From assembly GCA_005239675.1 (NCBI GenBank), contig SBBO01000002.1:1-34716 (forward strand): a DNA stretch of 34,716 bases, in the 5' to 3' direction. The stretch comes from Planctomycetales bacterium. Its GTDB lineage: Bacteria; Omnitrophota; Gorgyraeia; Zapsychrales; Zapsychraceae. Below the pieces are notes generated by a model. The model made no database searches, was not told where the DNA came from, and was given only the letters and a program-made list of their open reading frames with translations. A program made the position numbers and the translations under genes. This document shows positions 12,530-18,880 of this stretch, in pieces (the first letter of the stretch is position 1; the number at the start of each line of letters is the position of its first letter).

Positions 12530-13192
12530 ATGAACACTAAGGCCTTTTTAGCCGAATTCATCGGGACCTTCGCACTGATCTTTGTGGGCGTGGGTGCTAT
12601 TGCAAGTAATCATCTTAATGGCGGACAGATTGGTCTCGTTGGCATTGCGTTGGCGCATGGATTGACGATTGCCGTTATGGTGAGCGCGACTGCTGCGGTG
12701 AGCGGCGGGCATCTCAATCCGGCAGTCACCATAGGACTGTGGAGTGCCCGTAAGATTGACATCAAAGATGTCATCACTTACGTTGCCGCTCAGTGTTGGG
12801 GAGCCATCACAGCTGCGATCCTGATTAAAGGATGCGTTCCTGCTGGCGTCTTGGCGGTCGTGGGCATGGGAACACCAATGCTCGGCGATGGGGTTAGCGC
12901 TCCGATGGGATTCTTGACAGAGATCATCCTGACCTTCTTTTTAGTCTTGGCGGTGTATGGGACAGCAGTGGATAGCCGCGCCCCGAGAGTTGGGGGGTTG
13001 TTTATTGGGTTGACCGTTACCTTGGGCATCCTGGTGGGGGGTCCTATTACAGGTGCCGCGATGAATCCTGCCCGTTATCTTGGGCCAGCGCTTTTGGGCG
13101 GCGGGCTTGAGCTTTGGTGGTTATATTGGGCTGGGCCGGTCATTGGAGGTATTTTAGCTGCGGTGTTTTATAAAAAATGTTTAGAGGGTTAA
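12530..13192 (+). CDS. MIP-family aquaporin
   Basis: Two NPA motifs: GGHLNPAVT and GAAMNPARYLGPAL; six TM pattern. Confidence 0.95.
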   Translation: MNTKAFLAEFIGTFALIFVGVGAIASNHLNGGQIGLVGIALAHGLTIAVMVSATAAVSGGHLNPAVTIGLWSARKIDIKDVITYVAAQCWGAITAAILIKGCVPAGVLAVVGMGTPMLGDGVSAPMGFLTEIILTFFLVLAVYGTAVDSRAPRVGGLFIGLTVTLGILVGGPITGAAMNPARYLGPALLGGGLELWWLYWAGPVIGGILAAVFYKKCLEG

Positions 13193-13226
13193 ACAAGAAA
13201 AGGTATTTTATTAAACAGTTTTCATT

Positions 13227-13244
13227 TCACCATCACTATGGTGA
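13227..13244. promoter_or_regulatory. Palindrome TCACCAT-CACT-ATGGTGA just upstream of the tpx SD
   Basis: Perfect 7-bp inverted repeat in the aquaporin-tpx intergenic region. Confidence 0.4.
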
Positions 13245-13258
13245 GAAGGGAGTAGGGC

Positions 13259-13771
13259 ATGCCAGGAGTTGTTAATGCTGTTACAATGAGAGGAAAGCCT
13301 TTGACATTAACCGGCAATGATGTCCAGGTCGGGCAGTCCGCACCCGATTGTACGCTAATCGCCAATGACCTTTCCGAGTTTAAATTATCCTCTCTCAAGG
13401 GCAAGAAGGTGATCATCTCGGCTGTGCCATCGTTGGACACCCCTGTCTGTGATACGCAAACCAGACGGTTCAATCAGGAGGCGACCGGCTTAGGTAGCGA
13501 CATCGTTGTCTTAACGGTTAGCATGGATTTGCCCTTCGCGCAGAAACGCTGGTGCGGGGCTGCTGGTATGACCCGCGTTCAGACGCTTTCTGACCATCGC
13601 GAAGGCGCTTTCGGCAAGGCGTATGGTATCTTGGTAAGCGGGTTGCGTCTCCTTGCCCGGGCAGTCTTTGTTGTAGATGCCAAAGGGATCCTGCAGCACA
13701 AACAGATCGTTGAGGAAATCACGACGGAGCCTAATTACGAAAAGGCCTTACAAGCTGTTAGAAATTTATAA
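13259..13771 (+). CDS. tpx: Thiol peroxidase
   Basis: VQVGQSAPDCTLIANDL, PSLDTPVCDTQTRRFNQEA, SMDLPFAQKRWCGAAG. Confidence 0.96.
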   Translation: MPGVVNAVTMRGKPLTLTGNDVQVGQSAPDCTLIANDLSEFKLSSLKGKKVIISAVPSLDTPVCDTQTRRFNQEATGLGSDIVVLTVSMDLPFAQKRWCGAAGMTRVQTLSDHREGAFGKAYGILVSGLRLLARAVFVVDAKGILQHKQIVEEITTEPNYEKALQAVRNL

Positions 13772-13798
13772 TTTTTGTATTAAAAAAGGAGGCATATT

Positions 13799-14431
13799 AT
13801 GGCTTTTACATTACCGAATTTATCATACAGCCCTGATGCGCTCGAGCCACATATTGATGCACAAACAATGCAGATTCATCACGGCAAACACCATGCAGCA
13901 TACGTGAATAATCTCAATAAGGCCCTCGAAGGCAATGCCAGCCTTCAGCCTAGGACGCTTGAGGAATTGATTTCTAAGATATCAACCATCCCCGAAAATA
14001 TCCGCGCCGCTGTGCGTAATAATGGCGGAGGCCACTGGAACCATTCGTTATTTTGGGAAACAATTGGCCCTAGGGCCGGTGGTCAGCCGGGTGATGAATT
14101 GGCCGAGGCCATCAAAAACGATTTTGGCAGTTTTGAGATATTTAAAGAAAAATTTTCTAATGCAGCCACCACGCGCTTCGGTAGCGGCTGGGCCTGGCTT
14201 ACCATTAGTGGCGGAAAGCTCTGCGTCTGTTCGACTCCTAACCAGGATAATCCCTTGATGGATGTGGCTGAATGCAGGGGAATTCCGATTGTTGGGCTCG
14301 ATGTCTGGGAACATGCCTACTACTTAAAATATCAAAATCGCCGTCCTGAATATATTGCAGCATTCTGGAATATCATCAACTGGAATGCCGTGAACCAGCG
14401 TTACAAAACCCTACTTCAAAAATCAAAATAG
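13799..14431 (+). CDS. Superoxide dismutase, Mn/Fe family (Mn-type or cambialistic by motif)
   Basis: [63 protein letters not shown]. Confidence 0.95.
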
Positions 14432-14457: not shown

Positions 14458-14486
14458 TTGACGGCAGTATTTTTTCAACATACTAT
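14458..14486 (+). promoter_or_regulatory. Promoter of nrdAB
   Basis: TTGACG (14458-14463), 17-nt spacer, TACTAT (14481-14486). Confidence 0.65.
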
Positions 14487-14525
14487 ATATTGTGTTATAT
14501 AAAAATTTTATTCAAGATATTGTAT
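14480..14525. promoter_or_regulatory. Tandem NrdR-box-like pair
   Basis: ATACTATATATTGTGT (14480-14495; 15/16 to acaCwAtATaTwGtgt) and ATTCAAGATATTGTAT (14510-14525; 12/16), 30 bp start to start, first box covering the -10. Confidence 0.72.
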
Positions 14526-14631
14526 GCTCGTCTTATTAAATTGTCACGTCTGATCCATTCTCCAGATCTCAGCATGTCATATATTAATCGTAAATCCCAG
14601 CTATTTTTTTGCTCTAAGGAGGAATCACCGC

Positions 14632-17600
14632 ATGGTTCACGAAAAAATAACCGCTGATTTTGAAATAAAGGTCCAGAAGCGTAACGGCCAGATTGTTGCT
14701 TTTAACGAACTGCGTGTCAAAAAAGCCATTGGGAATGCCTTTAAAGAGCAGACAGGTCTCCCGCGCGAGGTGGAACTGTCCATCGAAATGGCACGCGATG
14801 TCGAAAAGATAGCATGTGATGTTTTTGTTGTGCTCAAAGAACGTCTGCACGACCAGCCTTACGTGACCGTAGAAGAGATTCAAGATGAAGTCATTCGACA
14901 GCTGTATGAACAAGGGTTTCCAGAGACAGCACAACTCTATGCTAATTACCGCAAACAGCACGCAAATCGTAGGGCATTATTTGAATTGTATTCCACGACC
15001 AAGCGTGACGGTAAGGTGGTTTCTTTTAAGTCGGACAAGATTACCCTCGCCATCGCCAAAGCCCTCCGGGCGCATAATCATGGCATCCTGACCGAGGCAC
15101 TCTTAGAGCGTGCGCGTCAGATTTCTGCTGGGGTTATCGCTGATATTCGCTCGCAATGGCCCGAAGGCAGGTGTCTTAATATCGAAGAAATCCAGGACTT
15201 CGTTGAAAAGAATTTGATGAAGGCCGGCTACAACGATATCGCATACCGTTACATCGCTTACCGAGAGGAGCGCGCCAAAGTTCGGCGCACCAAACAAGAA
15301 TCTCATCGCGGGTTAGAGGTTTCTTATGAGTGGATCAAGGATATCCGGCATAAGACCAAGGATGGCCAGCAGGTACCGTTGCCGTTGGATGAGATTCGAT
15401 TTCAGATCGAGCTGTGCAGCCAGGGACTTGGGCAGGTTTCGATAGAAGATATATTCAAGGAAACTGCTAAGAATTATTTTAATGACATGACTGCCGAGGA
15501 AATCATGACTGCCCAGATCATGGCAGCGAGATCATTTATCGAGAAGGAGCCGCAATACACATTTGCGGCTGCAAGGCTTTTATTGTTGAAACTTTATGCA
15601 GAGGCGATCGGCCGGCCGGTCAGTTTTGATGGAATGAAAATGGAATACGCTACTTATTTTGTCTCCTATATTCACAAGGCGGTCGAGTTGGAGTTGTTAA
15701 GTTCGGATCTCTTGCAGTTTGATTTGAAATTATTAGGACACCACCTAAAGCACAAACGGGATTTTCTTTTTCATTATATGGGTCTGCAGACGCTCTACGA
15801 CCGTTATTTCCTCCATTGGGAGAAACGGCGCATGGAATTACCTCAGATCTTTTGGATGCGGGTTGCCATGGGCCTAGCCAAACAGGAAGGCGCTAAAAAG
15901 AACGAGAAGGCAATGGAATTTTACGATGTGTTGTCTACGTTCCGGTTTACTTGCTCGACACCGACTTTGTTTAATTCTGGCACGCGCCATTCCCAGCTTT
16001 CTTCCTGCTTTCTGACAACCATCGAAGATGACCTGACACACATCTTTAAATGCGTCCAGGATGATGCCATGCTCTCCAAGTGGAGTGGAGGGTTGGGTAA
16101 TGACTGGACCAATGTGCGCGCCTTGGGGGCACGTATTAAAGGAACGAACGGCCGTAGCCAGGGCGTTATTCCCTTCATGAAAGTTGCCAACGATACTGCT
16201 TTGGCTGTTAATCAAGGGGGCAAGCGCCAGGGGGCCATGTGCGCGTATCTGGAAGTCTGGCATATGGACATCGAGGATTTCTTGGAGTTACGTAAGAATA
16301 CTGGCGATGAACGTCGACGCACCCACGACATGCATACCGCTGTCTGGATTCCGGATCTATTCATGAAGCGGGTCAAGGAGAATGGGGATTGGGCGCTTTT
16401 CAGCCCCGATGAAGTGCCTAATTTGCATCATATCTACGGCCGCGAATTTGAGCGCTGGTACAGCGAATACGAACAAAGGGCCTGTGAGGGGAAGATGAAA
16501 CAATACAAGATCGTCTCTGCCCTCCAGTTATGGCGTAAGATGCTGAATATGCTTTTTGAGACGGGCCATCCCTGGATTACCTGGAAAGACCCTTCCAATA
16601 TCCGTTCCCCCCAGGATCATGTGGGGGTGGTGCACAGTTCCAATTTATGCACCGAGATCTTGCTGAATACCTCTAAATATGAGACCGCAGTGTGTAATCT
16701 GGGATCGATCAATTTGGCTACACATACTACGCCCCAAGGGTTGGATTATACGAAGCTTAAAGAGACTATCCACACGGCGGTAAGGATGCTGGATAGTGTT
16801 ATTGATATTAATTTTTATCCAACCACTGAGGCCCAGATCGCTAACCAAAGGCATCGTCCTATCGGTTTAGGATTGATGGGTTTCCAGGACGCACTCTTTA
16901 TTCGCAACATCAGTTATGCCTCTCAGGAGGCCATGGAATTCGCTGATGAGACCATGGAGGCTATTTCTTATTACGCTATTTCTGCCTCTATTGCCTTGGC
17001 CAAGGAGCGTGGACCCTACAGCACTTATCGCGGGTCAAAATGGGACCGGGGACTGCTGCCCATAGATACCCTTGCCCTCTTAGAACAGGAGCGAGGTGGG
17101 TATCTGACGGTCGACCGCTCTTGTCGAATGGACTGGACGCCCATCCGCCAGGAGTTAAAGCAACACGGCATCCGCAATAGCCTGGTTATGGCCATTGCCC
17201 CAACAGCCACGATCGGCAACATCATTGGCGTGACAGCCTCTATTGAACCGATTTACAAGAATATCTTCGTTAAAAGCAATCTCTCCGGTGAATTTACCGT
17301 TGTCAACGAATTTCTTGTTGAGGATTTAAAGAAGCTTGGGCTCTGGGATGAGGAGATGATCAATGATCTTAAGTATTTCGATGGCAGCGTCCAAGAAATT
17401 GGGCGTATCCCCACAGAATTGAAGCGCAAGTACGCTACTGCCTTTGAGATTGAATATGAGTGGTTGATTGAGGCGGCGAGCCGTCGGCAGAAATGGATCG
17501 ATATGGGCCAGTCGCTTAATCTCTACCAGGCCAAGCCCAGCGGTAAAAAGGTGAGCGACATGTATATGTTCGCCTGGGAAAAGGGATTGAAGACCACTTA

Positions 17601-17802
17601 TTATCTGCGCTCCATGGGCGCAACCCGCATTGAGAAATCGACGCTTGATATTACCAAATACGATAATGTGGTTGGCAAGCGTGAGCGTGATGAGTTCGGC
17701 CGTATCGTTGATACAGTAGGGACAATGCCCGCTCAACAAGCACACCCCTCCTCGATGAGTCTTAGCAAGGAACATAAAGAAGATTGTGAGGCCTGTCAAT
17801 AA
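14632..17802 (+). CDS. nrdA: Class I ribonucleotide reductase alpha subunit with two N-terminal ATP-cone domains
   Basis: Two ATP-cones ([20 protein letters not shown] and [20 protein letters not shown]), [41 protein letters not shown]-terminal CEAC; SD AAGGAGGA. Confidence 0.97.
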
Positions 17803-17815
17803 GAGAGGAAGTTGT

Positions 17816-18880
17816 ATGTCTACGAACTGTTCATCCAGACAATCGATGCAGCAAATGACCCGAGAGCGGATCACGCTCGAGAACAAAAGAATTATTAACA
17901 ACGACCGCACCGTCGACTGCAATCAGCTGGTCCCCATCAAATACAAATGGGCTTGGCATTATTATCTGGATGGCTGTGCGAATAACTGGATGCCGACGGA
18001 GGTTTCCATGCAGCGTGATATCGAGCAATGGAAGGACCCTAAGGCATTTACCTCTCAAGAACGCCACGTTATCAAACGTGTTTTAGGATTTTTTGCAACA
18101 GCGGAGTCATTGGTCGGTAACAACCTCGTCTTGGCGGTGTACCGTTGCGTGGATAATCCTGAGTGCCGGCAGTATTTGTTGCGCCAGGCCTTTGAAGAGG
18201 CCGTTCATATCCATACGTTTCAGTACATCGTGCAGTCGCTTTCCCTCGATGAAGGCGAGATGTTCAATATGTATCGTGAGGTCGAGGCGATTTACAAAAA
18301 AGATGAGCACGCGATGAGCTGTACCGCAGGGGTCCTTGATCCAAGCTTAGATACCAAGACACCCCAAGGCCTACAGACATTGCTCAAGAATTTGATTGGA
18401 CTCTATGTCATTACCGAAGGGATCTTTTTCTATGGCGGGTTTGTCACTATGCTCTCGTTTGGCCGACAGAACCGCCTCCCCGGCACCTGCGAACAGATCC
18501 AATATATCCTGCGCGATGAAAGCATCCACATGAATTTCGGGATTGAGTTGGTGAACACGATCGTTGATGAAAATCCAAAAGTTTGGACAGAAGATTTTAA
18601 AGCAGAGATGACTAATTTTATCAAGCGTGCTGTCAAGCTCGAACTGGATTACATCCGCGACTGTCTTCCCGACGGCATCTTAGGCCTTAACCACAATCTC
18701 CTGCAGGACTATGTGCAGTACTTGGCCGACCGGCGTTTTGAGAGGCTGCGTTTACCTCAGCAATACCATTCCGGCAATCCATTTCCCTGGATGAGTGAAG
18801 TGATTGATCTTAAGAAAGAAAAGAATTTTTTTGAAACCCGCGTGACCGAATATCAAACCGGTGGCGCCTTAGAATGGTGA
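17816..18880 (+). CDS. nrdB: Ribonucleotide reductase beta subunit, class Ic-like (Phe at radical Tyr position)
   Basis: [92 protein letters not shown] opens at 17786 (GTG), SD GAGAGG favours ATG 17816. Confidence 0.95.

Follow-up and report, generated by a model that had tools for sequence, protein, structure and literature searches.

Which regulator controls the ribonucleotide reductase operon nrdAB in the Candidatus Omnitrophota MAG that we analysed, and do two palindromes lying upstream of this operon form an operator for the repressor NrdR? The window, i.e. the whole stretch of DNA under analysis (34,716 nucleotides), carries both palindromes on its forward strand. Box 1, ATACTATATATTGTGT (14480..14495), departs from the NrdR consensus ACACWATATATWGTGT by a single mismatch (15/16), and box 2, ATTCAAGATATTGTAT (14510..14525), by four mismatches (12/16); the original prediction had given these same coordinates, sequences and counts, and they are exact. 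The published core expression for NrdR boxes, C.[AT].A[AT].[AT].G (PMC12051234), is matched by the two boxes alike, and the pair is located where an NrdR operator is expected, upstream of a ribonucleotide reductase operon. The boxes start 30 bp apart and are separated by a gap of 14 bp. Published NrdR pairs have either short gaps of 14-17 bp or gaps of 24-27 bp, with the strongest binding at 15-17 bp (PMC12051234); the spacing foreseen for paired sites therefore stands, as it falls within the 14-17 bp class, with the refinement that it occupies the short edge of this class. No third, alternative NrdR box was seen near the pair.

The putative target of the boxes consists of two genes on the forward strand. 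The first, nrdA (14632..17802), encodes a class I ribonucleotide reductase large subunit of 1056 amino acids with two N-terminal ATP-cones, and the second, nrdB (17816..18880), whose reading frame is open from the GTG at 17786 and whose probable ATG start comes right after the nrdA stop, encodes a predicted class Ic small subunit. The solved structures nearest to NrdB are 1syy, which we take to be the C. trachomatis R2, and related entries. In NrdB, Phe145 takes the place that the radical tyrosine would occupy, and the first metal ligand is Glu107; these residues align with F127 and E89 of 1syy, and all six metal ligands are conserved between the two proteins. The assignment to class Ic made in the original prediction holds, being well supported by the Phe and Glu residues, the same as in the C. 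trachomatis R2, and by the kept ligands. Over the 307 aligned residues that were counted, NrdB shares about 60% identity with its Chlamydia counterpart. Chlamydia trachomatis, although it belongs to a different phylum, possesses a class Ic NrdAB like the present one together with an NrdR; its nrdAB is reportedly regulated by the NrdR orthologue CT406, an observation attributed to Case et al. in 2011. No NrdD or second large subunit was found in the 87%-complete draft of the MAG, so that, within the limits of this draft, the genome probably possesses no ribonucleotide reductase other than NrdAB. Directly upstream of nrdAB and on the same strand (window 12530-14431) lie the genes of an aquaporin-family channel, a thiol peroxidase and a Fe/Mn superoxide dismutase, which together with the oxygen-dependent NrdAB suggest a cluster of genes for oxygen tolerance. 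The stretch immediately before the nrdA promoter likewise resembles, in several relatives, the end of a superoxide dismutase gene.

The promoter had been described as TTGACG-17-TACTAT with its -10 inside box 1, and this description was confirmed: the -35 hexamer TTGACG (14458..14463, forward strand) precedes by 17 bp the -10 hexamer TACTAT (14481..14486, forward strand), which lies wholly inside box 1. Taken alone, the promoter-hexamer evidence is weak (three found for 1.5 +/- 1.5 expected), and the conservation of the hexamers in the relatives described below argues strongly for the predicted promoter. Transcription of nrdAB would probably start near 14493, which would place box 2 at about +18 to +33. 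A probable ribosome-binding site, read from the sequence, is the AAGGAGGAATC stretch at 14619..14623 of the forward strand, located about 9 bp ahead of the ATG of nrdA. The Rfam search of the window gave no matches, and the long nrdA leader therefore contains no known riboswitch.

A first question is whether the promoter alone is real, the AT-rich palindromes being the by-product of an AT-rich -10 accompanied by a chance second copy. The 32% GC content of the intergenic region lends itself to such an explanation. When the 200-bp intergenic region was submitted to 5,000 dinucleotide shuffles, neither a box of 15/16 (0/5,000) nor a box pair summing to at least 27 (0/5,000) was reproduced, and a box of at least 12/16 at any of the four allowed spacings had a P of ~0.0018 in these intergenic shuffles. 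The 1,319,296-base draft was then scanned with the consensus pattern in place of a full weight matrix, and box 1 was both the best match of the genome and the sole site with fewer than three mismatches. Sites with three mismatches occurred at background (9 sites in all, box 1 included in the scan, vs 12 with the reversed pattern), and this lack of excess over the reversed control is the other point in favour of a promoter devoid of operator; no good partner box was found for the other 3-mismatch sites of the genome. Measured in this way, the boxes stand far above the AT-rich background, and the original prediction, which scores no better than this background would have refuted, passes this check.

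The promoter and the boxes were then considered together in the relatives. The six nearest named NrdA loci (66-71% identity) belong to five Candidatus Omnitrophota and one unclassified bacterium. L011, which is one of the six, shares its nrdA upstream sequence with L062, a locus from a genome assigned to the order of the window's genome, and the MAG was attributed to Omnitrophota on these grounds. We collected 28 nrdA upstream regions, the window's included, of which 27 are distinct (L062 duplicates L011), and a common layout was present in 25 of these 27: TTGAC (TTGAT in L064), 16-18 bp, a TACTAT-like -10 within box 1, 14-16 bp, and box 2. In these 25 aligned loci, which are related sequences and do not count as independent events, the mean column information is highest in box 1 (1.53 bits), intermediate in box 2 with its flanks (0.97 bits) and lowest in the linker (0.30 bits), where the sequences diverge, a profile that amounts to a clear footprint. 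The right half of box 2 is conserved, with an invariant GT, and its left half is weaker. The recurrence of box 2, downstream of the promoter and at 14-16 bp from box 1, with this invariant GT in all 25 loci, joins the outcome of the shuffles in making it extremely improbable that the promoter alone is real, and a chance origin of the boxes was rejected through the shuffles and the conservation. Among the loci, between about 22 and 179 bp separate box 2 from the coding start of nrdA, so that the position of the pair follows the promoter rather than the start of the gene. The two regions devoid of the layout are L042 (OFTM55), an Omnitrophota nrdA (66% identity) for which 15 kb of sequence contain no such pair of NrdR boxes, and L056, where the pair is absent from an upstream sequence limited to 174 bp. 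In 8 of the 25 loci (L012, L013, L014, L015, L061, L065, L067 and L071), box 2 is without the conserved C at position 4, and its right half is still conserved; in L014, L015, L061 and L065, this C is found one base further out, which sets the half-sites of box 2 1 bp further apart.

The operator would require its repressor, and the gene that was to be sought elsewhere in the assembly is indeed present on contig 46 (G000:C46:74122-74247), outside the window, where it overlaps the end of glyA. Its product is a TIGR00244 equivalog, with 206 bits for a cut-off of 125. In S. coelicolor NrdR, the residues involved in zinc binding and DNA contact are two CxxC motifs, R12, D15, R17, R26-R29 and R37 (PMC9110341); in the NrdR of this genome, the four cysteines that bind zinc are conserved, as are D15, R17, R26-R29 and R37, and the conservative K at position 12 is the sole change among the residues checked. 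A search of 55 genomes, that of the window among them, detected NrdR in 54. No good box pair was found at 30 nrdR loci, where the best pair sum was 21, and an auto-regulation of nrdR was rejected on this ground.

Could the palindromes bind another regulator, for instance a Fur-like or redox protein? The presence of thiol peroxidase and superoxide dismutase genes directly upstream speaks for this possibility, which is nevertheless highly improbable: both the sequence of the boxes and the 14-16 bp spacing of the pairs are characteristic of NrdR, almost all of these genomes encode this repressor, and the same pairs precede nrdD, the gene of a different ribonucleotide reductase, in the relatives. 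The best upstream pair reached a sum of at least 23 in 19 of 30 nrdD loci of the relatives, and these pairs independently support the presence of NrdR boxes in the phylum.

By analogy with the studied homologues, the box pair is very probably a standard NrdR operator that would repress nrdAB. The control by NrdR that had been predicted is supported by the boxes, their spacing, a canonical nrdR and the conserved pair with its overlapping promoter, the repression itself being inferred from the homologues, as are the binding and the nucleotide response. In other phyla, repression is exerted by a tetramer of NrdR that, once it carries ATP together with dATP, occupies two boxes placed some three turns from one another, one box being insufficient (PMC12051234, PMC9110341); experiments there have established which spacings are permitted, that two boxes are required and that the sites overlap that of the polymerase (PMC12051234, PMC12176259, PMC9110341). 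In the present case, when dATP is plentiful, the tetramer carrying both nucleotides would settle on the two boxes, each of them receiving one pair of Zn-ribbons, thereby covering the -10, the probable start and the segment from about +18 to +33. Since box 1 spans the -10 and the probable start and box 2 lies just downstream, the bound NrdR would block the RNA polymerase and nrdAB would be repressed; the fall of dATP would make NrdR leave the DNA and allow the transcription of nrdAB. The points against the operator are the 12/16 match of box 2, the gap at the short edge and the missing pair in 2 of the 27 loci. The case of E. coli nrdAB also calls for caution, as a predicted box over the -10 is not functional and a box further downstream is used (PMC12176259); this caution is offset here by the conservation of the two boxes together and by the lack of a third box nearby.

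The arrangement resembles those of S. coelicolor nrdRJ and nrdAB and of E. coli nrdHIEF, nrdDG and nrdAB (PMC9110341, PMC12176259), where a pair of 16-bp palindromes, one some three helical turns from the other, likewise lies at the site of RNA polymerase in ribonucleotide reductase operons or overlaps this site, and where the repressor is of the same family with conserved DNA-contact residues. It differs from them in that the gap is 14 bp instead of 15-16, box 1 is placed on the -10 and box 2 beyond the probable start, and the nrdR locus is without a box pair. An NrdR operator at nrdAB is of a well-known kind and little in it is surprising; box pairs of the bacterial phyla had already been surveyed by a GTDB-wide scan (PMC12051234). 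In the collection of papers that it covered, our literature search found no text mentioning both NrdR and Omnitrophota. Our observations would extend the dATP-sensing NrdR circuit on ribonucleotide reductase genes to an uncultured phylum, where the conserved sites would make target prediction dependable.

At the nrdD loci of the relatives (L114-L142; e.g. L118 from 974, L129 and L134), box 2 usually occupies the spacer between the -35 and the -10, beginning at the -35 TTGACA itself, and box 1 lies upstream of the -35. We tentatively raise the possibility, without regarding it as likely, that the NrdR of Omnitrophota uses two operator layouts, one that covers the -10 and the start at nrdAB, the other on the -35 and the -35/-10 spacer at nrdD, and that these layouts, together with a left half of the second nrdAB box that is degenerate or shifted in some lineages, could lead to different degrees of repression of the oxygen-dependent and oxygen-independent enzymes. 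The distribution of the enzymes themselves is patchy among the Omnitrophota relatives, many genomes of the family having NrdD only, others NrdAB and some both; NrdAB alone was seen in the genome of the window.
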